From Blastococcus sp. LR1 (GTDB taxonomy: Bacteria; Actinomycetota; Actinomycetes; Mycobacteriales; Geodermatophilaceae), in contig NZ_JAIUJY010000001.1 of NCBI RefSeq assembly GCF_020166105.1, positions 1 through 64,000 on the forward strand: a stretch of 64,000 bases of DNA, read 5' to 3'. The notes beneath the pieces are model-generated. The model was not told the origin of the DNA, made no database searches, and saw only the letters and a list, made by a program, of their open reading frames with translations. A program made the translations under genes and the position numbers. This document shows positions 9,551 to 17,329 of the stretch, in pieces (within the stretch, counting starts at the first letter, position 1; each line of letters opens with the position of its first letter).

Positions 9551-9566
9551 GCATGAACGTTCATGC
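9551..9566. promoter_or_regulatory. ArgR box 2 (candidate)
   Basis: GCATGAACGTTCATGC is a perfect 16-bp palindrome directly beside box 1. The centres are 17 bases apart, consistent with paired sites for an ArgR hexamer, although the classic spacing is slightly larger. Confidence 0.6.
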
Positions 9567-9670
9567 CGGGTTTCCCAGCCGGTTCCCAGTTACCGAACGC
9601 CAAACTGTCAGTACCCACAGGCACTGTCAGCTCCTGTCCGGCGAAGCACGCCGGACGAGAGGAGCCCGCT

Positions 9671-9985
9671 GTGCAGATCATCGAGCCGTTCGGCGCCATC
9701 GACCTCGTCGACGAGGAGGCGGGTCCCGTGCTGCGCCTGCGCGGCGAGGTCGACTCCACGGTGGTCGCCCTCTGGGACGCCTCCGAGCACCGCCACGGTG
9801 ACGCGGTCGCCGTCGACGCGTCCGCGGCCACCTTCCTCGACTGCCGCGGTCTGCGACTCGTGGTCCGGGAGACCGAGGCGGCCCGCCGGGCCGGCCGGAT
9901 CCCCGAACTGCGCCGGCCGTCGAACCCTGTGCGCCGGCTGGTCGACATCGCCGGCGCGACCCCGCTGTTCGCGACCGTCGCCTGA
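9671..9985 (+). CDS. STAS-domain protein (anti-anti-sigma-like)
   Basis: A 104-residue single-domain protein. It resembles the STAS fold of anti-sigma-factor antagonists: LRLRGEVDSTVVALW, then VAVDASAATFLDCRGLRLVV, where the serine or threonine normally phosphorylated would lie near FLDCRG. The exact phospho-site is not obvious. GTG start with a good GAGAGGAG ribosome site. Transcribed divergently from argC. No partner anti-sigma factor is adjacent. Confidence 0.7.
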   Translation: MQIIEPFGAIDLVDEEAGPVLRLRGEVDSTVVALWDASEHRHGDAVAVDASAATFLDCRGLRLVVRETEAARRAGRIPELRRPSNPVRRLVDIAGATPLFATVA

Positions 9986-9986
9986 C

Positions 9987-10544
9987 TCAGCCCGTCGGTG
10001 GCCGCCACGGGCCCAGCGGGGCGTCCGCGCGCACGTACAGCGGATGCCGCGGCTCCCCGCTGGCGGTCGTGCCCAGACACAGCGGGTCGTCGAGCAGGGA
10101 CCCCACTTCGGCCGATCGACCTCGCCACGAACCGTGACTCCCCCACGCCGCGACGGTCGCCTGGCCCGCGGCGGTGAAGACCCGGAGGGCGTCGTCCCCG
10201 GCCGGGCCGACCGGATCGTCGACGGACCGGATCATCTTCGGATCGGTGTGGCGGACCGCGAACAGGTTCACGATCAGCAGCCCGCTCGCGCCCATCTCCC
10301 GGGACCGGCCGATGCACCGGTCCAGCGTCGGACGGCGGCGCTTCTCGGTGTCGCCGGTCGCGGGATTGAGCAGGACCCAGACCACGGTGGACGCGAGGTC
10401 CGCCTCGCCCCACCAGCGCCCGAACGCGTAGCGGAACACCATGTCCGGCGAGTACAGGTACCGCTCGGGCAGGCCGTCGGGCGACGTGCCCGGGCGGTCC
10501 TCCAGCCCGTGCTCGCCCGCGAGCGATGCGAACGGATCGGTCAT
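9987..10544 (-). CDS. DUF1643 family protein
   Basis: 185 residues of unknown function. The DUF1643 hallmarks are YRYAFGRWW, VVWVLLNPATGDTEKRRRPTLDRC and LLIVNLFAVRHTDP. The ATG at 10544 is chosen because conserved sequence begins shortly after it. The stop faces the stop of the STAS gene with 1 base between, a tight convergent pair. Related genes often sit in mobile or phage-derived regions. Confidence 0.75.
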   Translation of the reverse strand: MTDPFASLAGEHGLEDRPGTSPDGLPERYLYSPDMVFRYAFGRWWGEADLASTVVWVLLNPATGDTEKRRRPTLDRCIGRSREMGASGLLIVNLFAVRHTDPKMIRSVDDPVGPAGDDALRVFTAAGQATVAAWGSHGSWRGRSAEVGSLLDDPLCLGTTASGEPRHPLYVRADAPLGPWRPPTG

Positions 10545-10554
10545 CGGCCCATCC

Positions 10555-10977
10555 TCACCGACGCGCTCTCGATGCCTCGTGGACGTGTCGGGCAAGGACG
10601 ACGGCCAGCAACCGGTGGTCGACTGCGCCCTGCCGGCGTCCGTAGAGGACGAGATCCGCCTCCGTCCCCTCGAACGAGCTCTGGTCCTCGAGGAGCTCCC
10701 GCTCCGCCGTGACGATGCGGTGGAACCGCTCCTCGGTGAGCTCGCAGCACACGTCGAAGCTGAGCAGGAACCGGCGCATGCCACGTGCCGAGAAACCCAG
10801 AGCCTGGTCGACCGTCACCCCGCGGCTCGGGTACCGCGGTACCCCGTCGACCTCCAGCGGCCGCACCGGCAGGCCGATGCCCACCTGGGCGCGGAGGCCC
10901 GGGGCGTCGACGAGCGCGTCGAACAGCCCCTCACGCTCGGCCCGCCCCGTGGCCGGCGGCACGGACTCCTCGGTCAT
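10555..10977 (-). CDS. Hypothetical protein
   Basis: About 140 residues from the ATG at 10977, ending 10 bases before the DUF1643 start, so probably co-transcribed with it. I do not recognise the family. Visible features are a hydrophobic core around GMRRFLLSFDVCCELTEERFHRIV and a mixed-charge C terminus. No signal peptide or membrane segment. An in-frame start further up would add 14 residues. Confidence 0.55.
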   Translation of the reverse strand: MTEESVPPATGRAEREGLFDALVDAPGLRAQVGIGLPVRPLEVDGVPRYPSRGVTVDQALGFSARGMRRFLLSFDVCCELTEERFHRIVTAERELLEDQSSFEGTEADLVLYGRRQGAVDHRLLAVVLARHVHEASRARR

Positions 10978-11494
10978 GGGCCGTGATCCTGCACGATCGG
11001 CGCCGGCCCTCGCGCGCATCCGACGATGACTTCCGGGGCAGCCAGAGGTCGAAACGATCTATGACCGCTTCTCCGGCCACGGCCACCACCCTGACCCAGC
11101 TCGCCACCGCCATGTTTTACCGTGCAGGACCAGGACGCTGCGCGCGCCGCCGCGGGTCTCAGCGTCTTCCTCACGGTCCCCGCGCGGTCGGGATCTGAAC
11201 GCTGGCGGACTCCGTCGCCTCCACCTGAACCCCGCGATCCGGTTCAGACATCTGCCGCACGAGCAGGTCTGCATCGTCGACCCGAACGGTCAGCGCATCT
11301 GATGAGGTCTGCCGGTGGCCGTGGGTCCGACCCGGTCCACGACTACCGGGACCATCAGCCTCCGAGGGCCGCCGCCGCGCCTGTCGGTGGACCCTCCGCC
11401 GGCCACGCAGCGGTCTCGCTTCTGTCGGACCCGCGTGTCACCATCCGTGCCGCGTCGCCGTCCATGAGGGTCCGGCGCTCCCGGGGGTCCTCTC
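10978..11494. other. Gene-poor left edge of the accessory island
   Basis: About 500 bases without a convincing gene. A short open frame ending at 11302 (complete codons from about 11210) translates as a plausible protein tail, including HLNPAIRFRHLPHEQVC, but has no start or ribosome site. It may be the end of a degraded gene. A 45-codon ATG frame at 11061-11198 has no support. Confidence 0.4.
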
Positions 11495-11992
11495 ATGCGC
11501 TCGCACATGCCCGCTCTTGCGGTGCTCGCCGTCGGCCTGCTCGCAGGCTGTAGCTCCGCGGCCGATCCTGCCCCGTCGACTGCGGCCCCTTCATCGACCG
11601 TCGCGTGGTCCGGCCCCTCTGGCCTTGAGATTGAGTCTGAGCAGGCCGCTCGGGCAGCACTCGAGGCACAGCGGGTTGAAGCGGAGCGGGTCGAGGCTGA
11701 GCGGCTCGCCGTCGAAGCCGCTGCACGAGCCGCGGTCGAGGCAGCCACGGCGCAACGCGCTGCCGAGGAAGCTGCTCGGGCTGTCATCGACGCCGAGGGC
11801 GGTTGCCCGCCCGGGTGGTACTTCGACGACTCACTGGGATGCACCAAGGAGGACGCGGCCAGCGGCTCGGGCGACGGCTACGTCTCCTCCGACCTCGAGG
11901 TCCCCTGCTCGGACGGCACGGCGACGGTCGAGGAGTGCTTCGGGCCAGGTTCGGATCTCAACGGCAACGGCGTCGCCGACGTCAACGAGTGA
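11495..11992 (+). CDS. Putative lipoprotein with a calcium-loop-like tail
   Basis: 165 residues. N-terminal signal with lipobox LLAGC, so the mature protein should be lipid-anchored on the outer membrane face. Residues about 45-100 are a highly charged Ala/Glu/Arg coiled-coil segment. The C-terminal part has four cysteines in GCPPGWYFDDSLGC and later VPCSDG and EECFGPG. It ends in DLNGNGVADVNE, which fits an EF-hand/dockerin type DxNxNGxxD calcium loop. Precise function unknown. Confidence 0.7.
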   Translation: MRSHMPALAVLAVGLLAGCSSAADPAPSTAAPSSTVAWSGPSGLEIESEQAARAALEAQRVEAERVEAERLAVEAAARAAVEAATAQRAAEEAARAVIDAEGGCPPGWYFDDSLGCTKEDAASGSGDGYVSSDLEVPCSDGTATVEECFGPGSDLNGNGVADVNE

Positions 11993-12204
11993 CCGGAATC
12001 GTCGCGGTATGGCCGATCTTCGCGACCTCGGGCGACGGGTGGCGGGACGCGGCCCGACACGGGCACTACGTGAACCCAGCTAACGCCCCCGGACTGTCTC
12101 GGTCGTCGCCTACGCTCCCGGGCAACTAGGGATCGGCTCCGGAGTCGGCGCTTGACGCCGGCCAGGACGCGGAGCCGCAGCCGGGGACTTGTCGGAGGTA
12201 CTCC

Positions 12205-13452
12205 ATGGCACGCAGGCGCGGCTTCTTCGCCGAGCTGGCACATCAGGCAGCGGTTGCTGAGAAGAACCGGCAGCGCGCCCTCGCCGCCGCCAGCAAGGAG
12301 CAGGTGCGCCGTCAACGCGAGGCCGAGCGCCTCCAGCAGCAGCTCGAGCGAGTGCAGAAGCGCGAGTTGATCATGCTGGAGAAGGAGCAGAAGCAGCTCC
12401 ACATCGCCGCCCGCGAGGCTGAGGTCGAGCGCCTCAACGGTGAGCTGGCGCTGCAGCTGGCCGACATCGACAACGTGTTGTCCGCGACCCTCGACGTGGA
12501 CGACTACGTCGACCTCGAGCGGCTTCGGACGAAGGTTCAACACCCACGGTTCGAGTCGCGGTACAGCGACCCGGTCCCTGCTCCGGCACCGATCGAGACG
12601 CCGCCGGAGCCGGTGTACGTCGAGCCCGAACCGCCGCGGGGCATGGGCGCGGTGTTCGGCGGCAAGAAGAAGCAGGCCGAGGCCGTGGCCGCTGCCCAGG
12701 CTGCCTTCGCGCAGGCGCACCAGCAGTGGCAGCAGGCCGCGGCCGCGATCCCGATGCAGCAGCTCACCCAGCTCTCCGAGCACAAGAACGCCGAGGACGC
12801 CCGGCAGTCGAAGTTGGCCTTCGACCGGTCACGCTACGACTCGGAGTGCGCGCAGCGCCAGCGCGAGGCCGACGAGGCCAACGCCTCCCTCGATGAGCTG
12901 ATCCGCGACCTCGAACGCGGCACTCCGGACGCGGTCGAGGAGTACCTCGGCATCGTCTTCGGCAACTCCGTGTATCCCGCCGAATGGCCGTGGCCGCCGT
13001 CGTACAGCTACGACCCGGACACCAAGGAGCTCTCGATCCAGCTGAAGTTCCCTGCTCCGGGCGACCTGCCGACCGTGCGCCAGTACAAGTACGTGCGAAC
13101 GAGCGACGAGATCACCACCGCTGCCCAGACGCAGAAGGAGCAGAAGGAGCGGTACGCGGCGCTGATCAACAACATGACGCTGCGGACCCTGCACGAGGTG
13201 TGGGAGTCCGACCGCGGCGGGAAGGTCGACAGCATCTCGCTGGTGGGCTCGGTCTCCCATGTCGATCCGGCCACGGGCAAGGACACGGCGACGCCGCTGG
13301 TCGCCGCCGCCGTCGACCGGCGCACGTTCGAGGACGTCGACCTGAGCCGCGTGGCGCCGGCCGAGACCATGCGCCACCTGGGCGCGGTGGTGTCGAAGAA
13401 CCCACACGCCCTCACACCCATCACGTTGGCGCCCGGCGTCCGCGCCCACTGA
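12205..13452 (+). CDS. Coiled-coil protein of unknown function, paired with a GIY-YIG nuclease
   Basis: 415 residues with a strong GGAGG ribosome site. The N terminus is basic and then a long coiled coil (about 15-75, AEKNRQRALAAASKEQ onward). A Pro-rich linker is followed by a second helical part. A globular C-terminal domain (about 255-405) contains VYPAEWPWPPSYSYDP, TLHEVWESDR and VGSVSHVDPATGK. Similar tails occur, as far as I recall, in actinobacterial proteins next to restriction-type nucleases. No catalytic motif is visible. The next gene starts 26 bases on, implying one operon. Confidence 0.75.
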   Translation: MARRRGFFAELAHQAAVAEKNRQRALAAASKEQVRRQREAERLQQQLERVQKRELIMLEKEQKQLHIAAREAEVERLNGELALQLADIDNVLSATLDVDDYVDLERLRTKVQHPRFESRYSDPVPAPAPIETPPEPVYVEPEPPRGMGAVFGGKKKQAEAVAAAQAAFAQAHQQWQQAAAAIPMQQLTQLSEHKNAEDARQSKLAFDRSRYDSECAQRQREADEANASLDELIRDLERGTPDAVEEYLGIVFGNSVYPAEWPWPPSYSYDPDTKELSIQLKFPAPGDLPTVRQYKYVRTSDEITTAAQTQKEQKERYAALINNMTLRTLHEVWESDRGGKVDSISLVGSVSHVDPATGKDTATPLVAAAVDRRTFEDVDLSRVAPAETMRHLGAVVSKNPHALTPITLAPGVRAH

Positions 13453-13478
13453 CCGACCCGCAGAGCAAGGCGACTCAG

Positions 13479-15002
13479 ATGCACGGCTTTCGCTTCAACA
13501 GCCCTCCCGGCTGGCCCACCCCACCTCCTGGGTGGGTACCCCCGGACGGCTGGGTACCCGAGCCGGGCTGGCCGCCAGCGCCGCCGGGATGGGCGTTCTG
13601 GGTGCCGGACGCGGCCCCTGCCCCGGGGCCAGCGAACGAGGTTGGCTCGCTGGCTCCGGCGCCTGCGGCGTTGACGCCGCCGGCCGCGGAGCGCACCGAC
13701 AACGCTCGTCCGCGGCTCGCCGGCCACCCGGCTCCCGAGCGATCGACCCGCACCGTCTCCACGGCTGCACCAGCCCCACCGGCGTTGGTCAGAGACGCGC
13801 GCGTCACGGAGCTTGAGGCCGAGGTGGAACGGCTGAACAGACTCCTGTTCCAGGCCACCCTGCGGGCGCGCGAGCAGCGCGCCACCGAAGATCAACGGGT
13901 CGCCGAAGCGCAGCGGGCGGCCAAAGCGCAACGCCCGGCCGGTGACGACGACTTCGTCGAGCTCGACGACGCGCGCCTGCTCCAGCAGGTGGGCATCTAC
14001 AATTACCACCACCCGCTGGAGAACGCCGAGTCCTACCGGGAGCGCCTGGCCGAGTTGCGCGAGCAGGTCAAGGAGACGGTCAGGGACGGCAAGGCGATCG
14101 AGGCATCCGACCGGTTCTCCTTCAACAACTCCCTGGCGGCCGGCCGACGGATGACGGCGGACTTCAGCAAGCTGATGCTGCGGGCGTACAACGCCGAGGC
14201 CGACAACTGCGTCCGCGCGCTGCGCGCCGGCGCACTGGTCGCCGCGACCAAGCGCCTGGAGACGGCCGCGAGCACCATCGCCCGGCTGGGCAAGATGATG
14301 GAGATGCGCGTCTCCCCCGAGTACCACGCGCTGCGCATCACCGAGCTGGAGCTCACCGCCGACTACCTGTTCAAGCAGCAGGAGGAGCGCGAGGCGGCCC
14401 GCGAGGAGCGAGAGCGGCTGCGGGAGGAGCGCAAGGCCGAGCAGGAGCTCGCAGCGCAGCGGGAGAGGCTGGACAAGGAGCGGGCGCACTACGCCAACAC
14501 CCTCGCCGCACTGCGCGCCCAGGGCGCCGACGCCGAGGTCGCTGACGTCGAGGCGCGGCTGGCTGAGATCGACGCCGCGATCGAGGTGAACGACTTCCGC
14601 GCGGCCAACATCCGCGCCGGGTACGTGTACATCATCAGCAACGTCGGTGCCTTCGGCGACCGCGTCGTGAAGATCGGCATGACCCGCCGGCTGGAGCCGA
14701 CGGACCGCATCCGCGAGCTGGGGGACGCCTCGGTGCCGTTCCCCTTCGATGTGCACGCCCTGTACTTCTCCGACGACGCCGTCACGTTGGAGAACGAGCT
14801 GCACAAGGCTTTTGCTGCCCGCCGCCTGAACCGCGTCAACGAGCGTCGCGAGTTCTTCTTCGCCACTCCCGAGGAGGTACGTGAGGTCCTCGCTCAGAAG
14901 GTTGGAAAACTTCTTGAATACGCGGCGAAGCCCGAGGCGGATCAGTACTACCAAAGCCTGTCCAGTTGGCCGGCCAACGCCCGGGCAGGCACTGAGGCGT
15001 AG
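13479..15002 (+). CDS. DUF4041 / T5orf172 (GIY-YIG) nuclease, SNIPE-like
   Basis: 507 residues. Residues 9-40 are tryptophan-proline repeats of the PPGW type, followed by an Ala/Pro linker. Coiled coil at about 105-150. DUF4041-like helical domain at about 158-300 (DARLLQQVGIYNYHHPLENA). Second coiled coil at 300-370. C-terminal T5orf172/MUG113 GIY-YIG domain at 380-475: GYVYIISN at 381-388, KIGMTRR at 398-404, ENELH at 438-442 with a likely metal-binding Glu. This order matches the anti-phage nuclease SNIPE, whose N terminus is a membrane anchor; here there is none. Defence role is inferred. Confidence 0.8.
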   Translation: MHGFRFNSPPGWPTPPPGWVPPDGWVPEPGWPPAPPGWAFWVPDAAPAPGPANEVGSLAPAPAALTPPAAERTDNARPRLAGHPAPERSTRTVSTAAPAPPALVRDARVTELEAEVERLNRLLFQATLRAREQRATEDQRVAEAQRAAKAQRPAGDDDFVELDDARLLQQVGIYNYHHPLENAESYRERLAELREQVKETVRDGKAIEASDRFSFNNSLAAGRRMTADFSKLMLRAYNAEADNCVRALRAGALVAATKRLETAASTIARLGKMMEMRVSPEYHALRITELELTADYLFKQQEEREAAREERERLREERKAEQELAAQRERLDKERAHYANTLAALRAQGADAEVADVEARLAEIDAAIEVNDFRAANIRAGYVYIISNVGAFGDRVVKIGMTRRLEPTDRIRELGDASVPFPFDVHALYFSDDAVTLENELHKAFAARRLNRVNERREFFFATPEEVREVLAQKVGKLLEYAAKPEADQYYQSLSSWPANARAGTEA

Positions 15003-15078
15003 GGACTCGCCACCGCTGAGCGGCGCCAGGGACGGCTGAGCCGGTCGGGCAACGGGCTGTTGCCCGACCGGCGGTTGG

Positions 15079-15651
15079 CTATGACCCTGTTTCGTCGGTG
15101 CGCCGGATGACACCCTTGGCCACAGGCTGGAGTGGACGCCAGTCCACGCCGCTACCTCGCCAGAAGCGGCCGCAATCGGCTTCGATCTCGGCCTTGAGCT
15201 CGTCAAGATGGGCGTAGAACGCCTGCTCAGCCTGGCTGAGGCCTTCGCCCTTCATCTGCTCCCTCAACTCATTGAGCCTCTTCTGGATTTGCCGCAGCGC
15301 GATGCCAGCGGCCGCACTGAACCCGCGCGCGAAACGTGCGTCACCATGGTCGGTCATCGCCCCTTGAACTGAGTCGCGGGCGGCGTCCATGACGGACTGG
15401 CCTAATCCGCGGAACCGCTCTGCACGCGCGTCCAGGCAGTCGAACCCGATCCGGCTCAGTACGCGTTGCGCCTCCATGGTTGTGAACGTTGTGCGGTCCC
15501 AGCCAGTGACGTGCCCGAGGACCTGCTTAGGCGGGAACATCCGCCCATTGACCACGACCGTGTGCTTCTGAATCGGTTCAGGGTCCGCATCGATCATGCG
15601 GGCCTCGACCTCCTGCATCGTGAGGTCGAAGTTCCGGCCACCTACCTTCAT
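15079..15651 (-). CDS. Small restriction-like or DNA-binding protein (hypothetical)
   Basis: 190 residues, good GAGGG ribosome site before the ATG. The first 75 residues contain VVNGRMFPPKQVLGHVTG followed by FTTMEAQRVLSRIGF, a small domain I associate with proteins near HNH or McrA-like restriction enzymes. The rest is helical and charged with no nuclease motif. It faces the nuclease gene tail to tail, 76 bases apart. Function unknown. Confidence 0.6.
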   Translation of the reverse strand: MKVGGRNFDLTMQEVEARMIDADPEPIQKHTVVVNGRMFPPKQVLGHVTGWDRTTFTTMEAQRVLSRIGFDCLDARAERFRGLGQSVMDAARDSVQGAMTDHGDARFARGFSAAAGIALRQIQKRLNELREQMKGEGLSQAEQAFYAHLDELKAEIEADCGRFWRGSGVDWRPLQPVAKGVIRRTDETGS

Positions 15652-15748
15652 CTCTACCCTCTCGAGTGCTCACTATGACTTACTGTAAGGGGCAATAAGT
15701 TTTACCACACGGCTTGACAAGCATGAGGGCGTTGGGGGCCGGCTCCAG

Positions 15749-16553
15749 ATGGTGGCCGCCGATCGGCCGCGTGAGGCAGTCGTCAAGCAGTCGGGGCGCC
15801 AAGCGCTCGGCATGAGCGGACTTCGCGGCCCCAGCGATGGGGACGCACTCAGTGACAGCGCCCCACGCCGGAGCCTCGTGGACACGGGGCGGTCGCAGCC
15901 CAACCGCGAGGTGGTGCTGCACCTCGCCGAGCAGCTCGAGGTGCCGCTGCGAGCACGCGACGAGCTGCTCGTCGCGGCCGGCTACGCCCCGGTCCACGGG
16001 CGACGGGGACTCACCGCCTCGGACATGGACGCCGTCCGGCGCGCCATCGACACCGTGCTGGCCGCCTACGAGCCGTTCCCCGCCGTGGTGGTCGGCCGCG
16101 GCTGGAACCTGGTCGCCGGCAACCGGGGCCTCCCGCTCCTCACCGACGGCGTGCACCCGCGACTGCTGGAGCCGCCGGTCAACATCCTGCGGTTGCCCCT
16201 GCACCCCGATGGCATGGCGCCCCGGATCCGCAACCTCGCCCAGTGGCGCACGCACGTGCTCCAGCGGCTCGGGCGCGAGGTCCGGCCCTCCGGCGATCCC
16301 GGACTGGCCGCCCTGCATCGCGAGCTGTCCCTGCTGCCCGGCGGCGCGGATCCGTGTCCGCGGGACGGCATCGCCGTCCCGTTGCGGATCCGGGCCGGGG
16401 ACGCCGAGCTGTCGTTCCTCTCGACCGTGACGACCTTCGGCACGGCGGTGGACCTGACCGCGGCCGAGGTCAGCGTCGAGGCGTTCCTCCCCCGCCGACG
16501 AGCAGACCGCCGAGGCGGTCCGGGCTCAGGCCAGCGGGTCGGCGTCGCCGTAG
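15749..16553 (+). pseudogene. Broken XRE/MmyB-type transcriptional regulator
   Basis: The C-terminal ligand domain is intact and recognisable (YEPFPAVVVGRGWNLVAGNR, VNILRLPLHPDG, LRIRAGDAELSFLSTVTTFG). The helix-turn-helix part is degenerate: only SLVDTGRSQPNREVV aligns. Near the end, the reading frame is lost at a run of five Cs (16489-16493). Removing one C restores the family ending PADEQTAEAVRAQA and a stop at 16551. Two lesions mark it as a decayed gene at the right edge of the island. Confidence 0.7.
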
Positions 16554-17321
16554 GGGCGCAGGCGGAGCTGCCGGGCGGCGTCCTCGGGCGTGGTGGAGCG
16601 CAGCACGTCGAGGTCGTCCTTGCCGGCCCGCACGAAGCGGCCCGACCAGTGGTCGAGCTCGCCGGCGGCGATCGCCGCGACGATCTCGACCACCGCCTCC
16701 GGCGGCGTCCAGTCGGTGAAGCCCTGCCACATGTGCATCGACCGCGTCATGGGGGTGTTGACGACGCCGGGCGCCACGTCGAAGGCCCGGACGTCCGACC
16801 CCTCCAGCGCGGTGGCCAGCGACTCGGTCAGCCGCATGAGGCCCGTCTTCGCCACCGAGTACGCCGAGTACTCAGGGACGGCCCGCGTGCTCATGCCGCT
16901 GGCGATGTTGACGACCCGGCCGCGGTTGCGCAGCACCATCCACGGCACGACGTTCCGGATGGTCAGCTGCGCGCCCCGGATGTGGCTGGAGACGACGTCC
17001 CACCACTGGTCGGCGTCGGCCTCCCAGACGGGCACCTCGAACTCGTCGATCAGCCCGGCGTTGTTGACCAGCAGATCCACCTGACCGAGCTTCTCGACGA
17101 CCTCGGCGACGGCGACCTCCACCGACGCGCGGTCGGTGACGTCGGCGGCGACGGCCAGGGTGCGGGCCCCGGTGGCCGCGGCGACCTCGTCCATCGCCGT
17201 CTGCAGCCGGTCGGCGGTCCGGGCGAGGCCGGCCACCGCCATCCCGCGCGCCGCCAGCCCCTCGACCAGGTGCCGGCCGATCCCCGTGGACGCGCCGGTG
17301 ACCAGCGCGACCCCATTGAGG

Positions 17322-17329
<8 letters not shown>
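16526..17329 (-). CDS. Short-chain dehydrogenase/reductase
   Basis: 267-residue classical SDR. Nucleotide site TGASTGIG at the N terminus, NNAG mid-protein, catalytic Ser in NIASG and YSAYSVAK carrying the Tyr-x-x-x-Lys pair. Substrate unknown. Its GTG start overlaps the last 8 bases of pheT. The 3' end overlaps the restored reading frame of the neighbouring pseudogene, which converges on it. Confidence 0.88.

Follow-up and report, generated by a model that had tools for sequence, protein, structure and literature searches.

A SNIPE-like nuclease gene of Blastococcus sp. LR1 without a transmembrane segment, paired with an upstream restriction-enzyme-like gene in a possible two-gene anti-phage system

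The anti-phage nuclease SNIPE, known earlier as PD-Lambda-1 (PMC13190303; PMC9519451), combines DUF4041, long helices, and a GIY-YIG domain with a catalytic glutamate. According to the accessible text of PMC13190303, SNIPE discriminates self from non-self by membrane binding, and its defence activity is abolished by the E414A substitution or by deletion of DUF4041. The same text reports that SNIPE without its transmembrane (TM) segment is highly toxic in Escherichia coli, where it cuts host DNA, and that 66% of SNIPE homologues have one or two TM helices, so that these helices do not define the family; the N termini that it names are TM, DivIVA, type III secretion system ATPase, PH, and DUF4428, with TM-less forms included. 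A second relevant family is mREase_IV (PADLOC PDLC03663), in which a non-nuclease platform region is joined to an Mrr nuclease. Here we analyzed the first 64,000 nucleotides of contig NZ_JAIUJY010000001.1 of Blastococcus sp. LR1 (GCF_020166105.1; this whole stretch is called the window) and in particular a SNIPE-like gene at positions 13479..15002, which an earlier note on this DNA, made from the letters alone, had described as a single gene with an inferred defence function.

The protein resembles SNIPE in its DUF4041, long helices, GIY-YIG domain, and catalytic Glu; it differs from SNIPE in having no TM helix, in carrying an N-terminal module that we named PPGW in this analysis, and in that its gene comes second in an operon, after that of a platform protein. 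The partner likewise spans the non-nuclease platform region of mREase_IV but, unlike that enzyme, has no Mrr_cat domain, with the nuclease coming from a separate DUF4041-GIY-YIG protein. We regard the window system as a SNIPE variant with an added N-terminal module and a partner gene, not as a new kind of system. Neither a PPGW-type module nor the partner gene is described in the accessible text of PMC13190303, and a search of open-licence PMC text, supplements being outside its scope, found no report of a two-gene SNIPE or of the PPGW module among the papers listed. The features of the pair, all on the plus strand, are as follows.

12205..13452 (+), partner gene, 415 aa, non-nuclease part of mREase_IV without Mrr (PADLOC, AlphaFold2, upstream homologues)
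13453..13478 (+), 26-nt gap separating the partner and nuclease genes (read from the sequence)
13479..15002 (+), SNIPE-like DUF4041-GIY-YIG nuclease gene, 507 aa, ATG start (Pfam, PADLOC, homologues)
13479..13613 (+), PPGW module, aa 1-45 (blocks of predicted local distance difference test score, pLDDT; alignment A3; no Pfam match)
13623..13766 (+), disordered Pro/Ala-rich linker, aa 49-96 (pLDDT < 50)
13782..13931 (+), first long helix, coiled-coil-like, aa 102-151 (AlphaFold2/DSSP)
14169..14336 (+), DUF4041, aa 231-286 (Pfam PF13250)
14316..14615 (+), long helices linking DUF4041 to the nuclease domain, aa 280-379 (AlphaFold2/DSSP)
14619..14894 (+), GIY-YIG (T5orf172/MUG113) nuclease domain, aa 381-472 (Pfam PF10544, PF13455)
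14790..14792 (+), E438 codon, counterpart of E. coli SNIPE E414 (BLASTP alignment)

The nuclease open reading frame (ORF) is present with the strand, ATG start, and 507-aa length given in the earlier note. Pfam searches placed DUF4041 at residues 231-286 (E 5.4e-19), MUG113 at residues 397-472 (E 4.5e-18), and T5orf172 at residues 381-472 (E 7.5e-16), each above its curated cut-off, and the PADLOC PD-Lambda-1 profile matched residues 130-495 (E 5.9e-107; profile positions 96-471 of 491). DUF4041 occurs once in the genome of the window and is absent from all 14 control genomes. The AlphaFold2 model gives, in order, an N-terminal module folded at residues 1-40, a disordered linker, helix 102-151, the DUF4041 region, helices 280-379, and GIY-YIG at 381-472; together with the Pfam domains, it agrees with the order of coiled coil, DUF4041, coiled coil, and T5orf172 GIY-YIG proposed before. 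Residues G381, Y384, K398, G400, R403, R404, and E438, from the GYVYII, KIGMTRR, and ENELH motifs that had been read as an intact active site, are invariant in a 69-row alignment (A2, 69 of 83 proteins) and also in a 5-row alignment with E. coli SNIPE. In a BLASTP alignment with XSB42081.1, an E. coli phage protein annotated PD-lambda-1, the window protein showed 32% identity over 341 aa (E 3e-56), with identity highest in the nuclease region and E438 pairing with residue 414. In the core tree, the closest relatives of the nuclease gene are from Blastococcus and other Geodermatophilaceae. Based on these sequence comparisons, the gene is well supported as a SNIPE (PD-lambda-1) homologue whose catalytic residues are intact, as had been claimed. 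Homology alone is no guarantee of activity, because, of two PD-Lambda-1 homologues of Streptococcus thermophilus that are 98.5% identical, one protected against some phages by >3 log and the other did not protect at all, according to the accessible text of PMC12322248.

The N terminus of this protein bears out one half of what the earlier note had said of it, namely that a Trp/Pro segment stands in place of the TM anchor. No TM segment was found in the window nuclease, whose maximal 19-residue Kyte-Doolittle mean (KD19) was 0.95 compared with 3.37 for E. coli SNIPE as a positive control, and none of 82 SNIPE-like loci reached a KD19 of 1.8. The description of the segment as a repeat did not hold up. 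In an alignment of 37 modules (A3), F6, P10, W12, P21, W25, P27, W31, P35, and W38 are invariant, and AlphaFold2 predicts short strands at residues 4-6 and 41-43, with mean pLDDT of 87-95 for blocks at residues 1-40 and 72 at residues 41-50. Since the register is invariant over 37 rows and a fold is predicted, we regard the segment as a conserved, fixed-register module of ∼45 aa that is probably folded rather than as a loose repeat. None of the 37 members matched a Pfam family at E <= 10. DUF2510 (PF10708) was considered as a parent family of PPGW, and the match was marginal (hhalign probability 48%, 18 columns), so this relationship is not claimed.

Other N termini occur among the SNIPE-like proteins of this set. 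TerD takes the place of TM or PPGW in L081 and L093 (Pfam E 2e-31 and 7e-29), and by eye L080, L085, L088, and L090 have similar TerD-like N termini; these six proteins come from the Arthrobacter group and one Nocardioides. By eye, L007 has a DUF2510-like stretch at its N terminus.

What the single-gene view had overlooked is the gene directly upstream. The 415-aa partner matched the PADLOC mREase_IV profile with E 1.6e-39 (positions 18-381 of 544) and no Pfam family over cut-off, Mrr_cat included, and its AlphaFold2 model (mean pLDDT 90.7) has long helices at residues 4-89 and 153-238 followed by an alpha/beta domain from residue 241. The distribution of this partner was followed in a locus set for which 80 of 85 relatives were kept and which comprises 82 non-duplicate loci, L003, L004, and L005 being duplicates of L015, L017, and L046. 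A partner homologue lies directly upstream and on the same strand in 40 of these 82 SNIPE-like loci, as well as in the window. In 39 of the 40, the two genes are separated by -4 to +66 nt (L040 has a larger value owing to a broken nuclease frame); 24 of the 40 have a gap of 5 nt or less, 11 have overlapping frames, and in L061 and L063 it is the partner whose frame is broken. In the 83-row core tree, a single clade (branch 0.77, Shimodaira-Hasegawa-like approximate likelihood ratio test (SH-aLRT) 100) unites the window and the 40 partner loci, 41 rows in all, with L064, where the contig stops short of the upstream gene, so that the partner is directly upstream in 41 of 41 clade members whose upstream region can be read. 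In the 42 rows without a partner (41 outside the clade, plus L064), the partner profile found no homologue. PPGW is in frame in 40 of the 41 partner rows (by eye in L024) and out of frame in L040, and 27 of the 42 rows lacking a partner carry it too; these frequencies are somewhat biased because one of the six peptide patterns that seeded the locus search lies inside PPGW. As to whether the window SNIPE works as a single gene, what is observed is this pairing in every readable clade member, and its tightness suggests that partner and nuclease may act jointly. Partner and nuclease distances are correlated over 38 pairs (Mantel r 0.93, 0 of 2000 permutations as high), a correlation that shared descent also explains.

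The relationship of the partner to mREase_IV was examined with a profile of the platform (alignment A1, 40 rows: the window and 39 of the 40 partner loci, with frame-broken L063 left out and L061 left in although the first half of its partner is out of frame). Within the class, 55 of 394 genomes had a match to this profile, at 61 places once fragments of the same gene had been merged. At nine of these places the platform immediately precedes a SNIPE-like gene, and an Mrr tail is absent from all nine; they are the window, three (L094, L099, and L101) that are the same genes as L031, L038, and L037, and five new ones. In seven of the nine, PPGW and the SNIPE core are intact, L102/L271 has the core without PPGW (the L102 partner was flagged for an inner stop), and L100 has a PPGW start with the core broken after ∼110 aa. 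At 49 of the 52 other places, the platform has an Mrr-type tail, as judged with a profile derived from 21 tails of this same group, and the three tails compared with Pfam all matched Mrr_cat (E <= 5e-30). Neither the SNIPE core nor PPGW was found at any of these 52 places in up to ∼4 kb of flanking sequence to either side, and none of the 61 places has both Mrr and SNIPE. In a tree of the shared region, built from the first 30 loci and A1, one branch (SH-aLRT 100) splits Mrr-less from Mrr-bearing copies (47 and 21 rows).

PPGW is not confined to SNIPE-like proteins. A survey of the class, in which at most 24 candidates per genome were scored so that its counts are lower bounds, found matches to profile A3 in at least 44 of 296 genomes and at least 52 distinct PPGW ORFs, of which 13 have a SNIPE core, one (L145) is the first part of a SNIPE gene that is broken, and 38 are other proteins. 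Among the matches listed, 29 of these 38 contain a TM-like segment, compared with 75 of 468 background ORFs (16%) whose length distribution was not matched to that of the PPGW ORFs. TM-like segments were called with a simple Kyte-Doolittle rule in 28 cases and by eye in one (L157), with L145 outside the denominator. In 22 of the 29, again among the matches listed, the module is N-terminal to the TM-like segment. DUF2510 of actinobacteria, which like PPGW is short and Trp/Pro-rich, differs in this respect, with a TM-like segment in 8 of 18 DUF2510 ORFs from 24 loci. The TM-bearing PPGW proteins include L148 (GmrSD_C/Excalibur) and L158 (Excalibur). Nine of the 38, among the matches listed, lack a TM-like segment, and several of these are fragments; in L161:1679-4870 (genome G178) PPGW is in frame with a HATPase_c_3 (GHKL) domain, and L173:1940-3415 (genome G256) has two PPGW modules and Mrr_cat (E 4.7e-12). 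The latter ORF is divergent from, and ∼1 kb away from, the partner-SNIPE pair of the same genome. In L125:6346-7185, which comes from an earlier homologue search rather than from this survey, PPGW is followed by a hydrophobic segment (TM by eye) and then by Ltp repeats (PF07553, E 4.7e-29). Ltp repeats are a type known from superinfection exclusion, and according to the accessible text of PMC3952083, those of Ltp of S. thermophilus phage TP-J34 act on the tape measure protein, a target that SNIPE is also proposed to have. The TM-bearing company of PPGW and the Ltp link fit, but do not prove, docking of PPGW at the cytoplasmic side of the membrane.

The reading that we tentatively favor is a two-gene anti-phage system in which a soluble SNIPE nuclease would be docked by PPGW and controlled by the partner, with defence, docking, and complex formation all inferred. 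By homology, DUF4041 of the second gene product would bind phage DNA or injection components, and its GIY-YIG domain would cut the incoming DNA. Because this product has no TM helix, we propose that PPGW, via the flexible linker, may dock it at the cytoplasmic face of the membrane or at a membrane-protein complex. The first gene product would be a scaffold or sensor that has its Mrr nuclease in cis in mREase_IV and would use the SNIPE nuclease in trans here; it might restrain that nuclease on host DNA and license or position it on phage DNA. Since TM-deleted SNIPE is toxic (PMC13190303, accessible text), a natural TM-less SNIPE must have some other restraint or tether, and the anatomy offers two candidates for this role, namely PPGW by docking and the partner by restraint, sensing, or positioning. 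Two findings weigh against this reading: the partner-SNIPE pair of genome G225 (L102/L271) has no PPGW on its nuclease, and the diverged platform copies L225, L226, and L246, which are not in the shared-region tree, lack both an Mrr tail and, over ∼4 kb, a SNIPE-like gene; they could be decayed or have another working partner.

The same PPGW-less pair would fit a reading of the two proteins as subunits of a type IV-like restriction enzyme, in which the partner recognises modified DNA, as is presumed for mREase_IV, the SNIPE-like nuclease subunit acts anywhere in the cytoplasm, and PPGW is a subunit contact or has another role. That the partner spans the non-nuclease part of mREase_IV and stops where Mrr would start also speaks for such an enzyme, which we nevertheless consider rather unlikely: PPGW is carried as well by the 27 partnerless SNIPE-like rows and by many proteins with TM-like segments, and the methyl-directed character of mREase_IV is a PADLOC label. 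The toxicity of TM-less SNIPE in E. coli (PMC13190303, accessible text) and an operon with the partner gene first and a gap of 5 nt or less in 24 of 40 loci would suit a partner that is an antitoxin-like inhibitor, released on infection so that the host-toxic nuclease cuts host DNA and the infection is aborted. This seems improbable to us, as 42 SNIPE-like rows (the cut contig L064 included) have neither TM nor partner and so cannot rely on the partner, which is moreover long and conserved and has its relative in a restriction enzyme, not in an antitoxin. Very unlikely in our judgment is a complete, stand-alone SNIPE with an independent defence gene merely linked to it; the partner was indeed not found by profile in any of the 41 SNIPE-like loci outside the clade, and three platform copies have neither SNIPE nor Mrr, but within the clade the partner is directly upstream wherever the sequence can be read, and 11 of 40 pairs have overlapping frames.

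A broader form of the two-gene reading, docked and partner-controlled, is conceivable, although we hold it as doubtful. In it, defence would be of a plug-in kind: one sensor/scaffold family would have Mrr in cis or SNIPE in trans, and PPGW would be a general actinobacterial docking tag taking DNA-acting effectors (SNIPE, the Mrr enzyme, the GHKL-ATPase protein, and the membrane-anchored GmrSD_C and Ltp-repeat proteins) to membrane sites of phage DNA entry.

The pair sits between pheT and argC. When the nine neighbours from argR to pheT were considered as extra parts of the system, loci L003-L093 gave four weak matches, all to the SDR gene; therefore, two genes are claimed. A further gene at 15079..15651 (-), of 190 aa, has a match to the SCO5918 family that falls below threshold (NCBIfam; 51.2 bits against a cut-off of 60) and no match in loci L003-L093. 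Across 23 genomes of the genus, the argC-pheT interval (window 9554-17325), measured by hand, ranges from about 0.8 to 8.7 kb and appears to be a site that accommodates accessory genes. The system is accessory and lies at different places, because a full-length SNIPE-like gene is present in 3 of these 23 genomes and in two of them (G015 and G022) it is on another contig, with pheT and argC about 1.0 and 1.7 kb apart. The loci of the set are from Actinomycetota, except L051 (a Chloroflexota metagenome-assembled genome (MAG) contig) and L032 (an unclassified MAG); L006 and L007 are from the order of the window. A PADLOC match (E <= 1e-5) was found in 7 of 20 flanking ORFs from 14 loci (HTH_VI in L018, mad3 in L022, RecD-like in L025, Old/GajA-like in L030, AriAB-like in L031, QatA-like in L033, and TPR in L036), a raw count without a baseline from which no enrichment is claimed.

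Broken SNIPE-like or partner genes (L100/L145/L270, L040, and L063) hint at turnover or are assembly errors. SNIPE-like genes are also found in phages, namely Mycobacterium phage Mask and Corynebacterium phages Poushou, Colleen, TouchMeNot, and Arianna (records H41-H46; 50-51% identity over 67-76% of the query).

With a natural TM-less clade that has a restriction-enzyme-like partner, the safety of a soluble SNIPE becomes directly testable. Where PADLOC profiles see PD-Lambda-1 and a truncated mREase_IV, our analysis suggests a two-gene model, and PPGW may be a recruitment module that offers a handle for finding more membrane-linked defences in actinobacteria.
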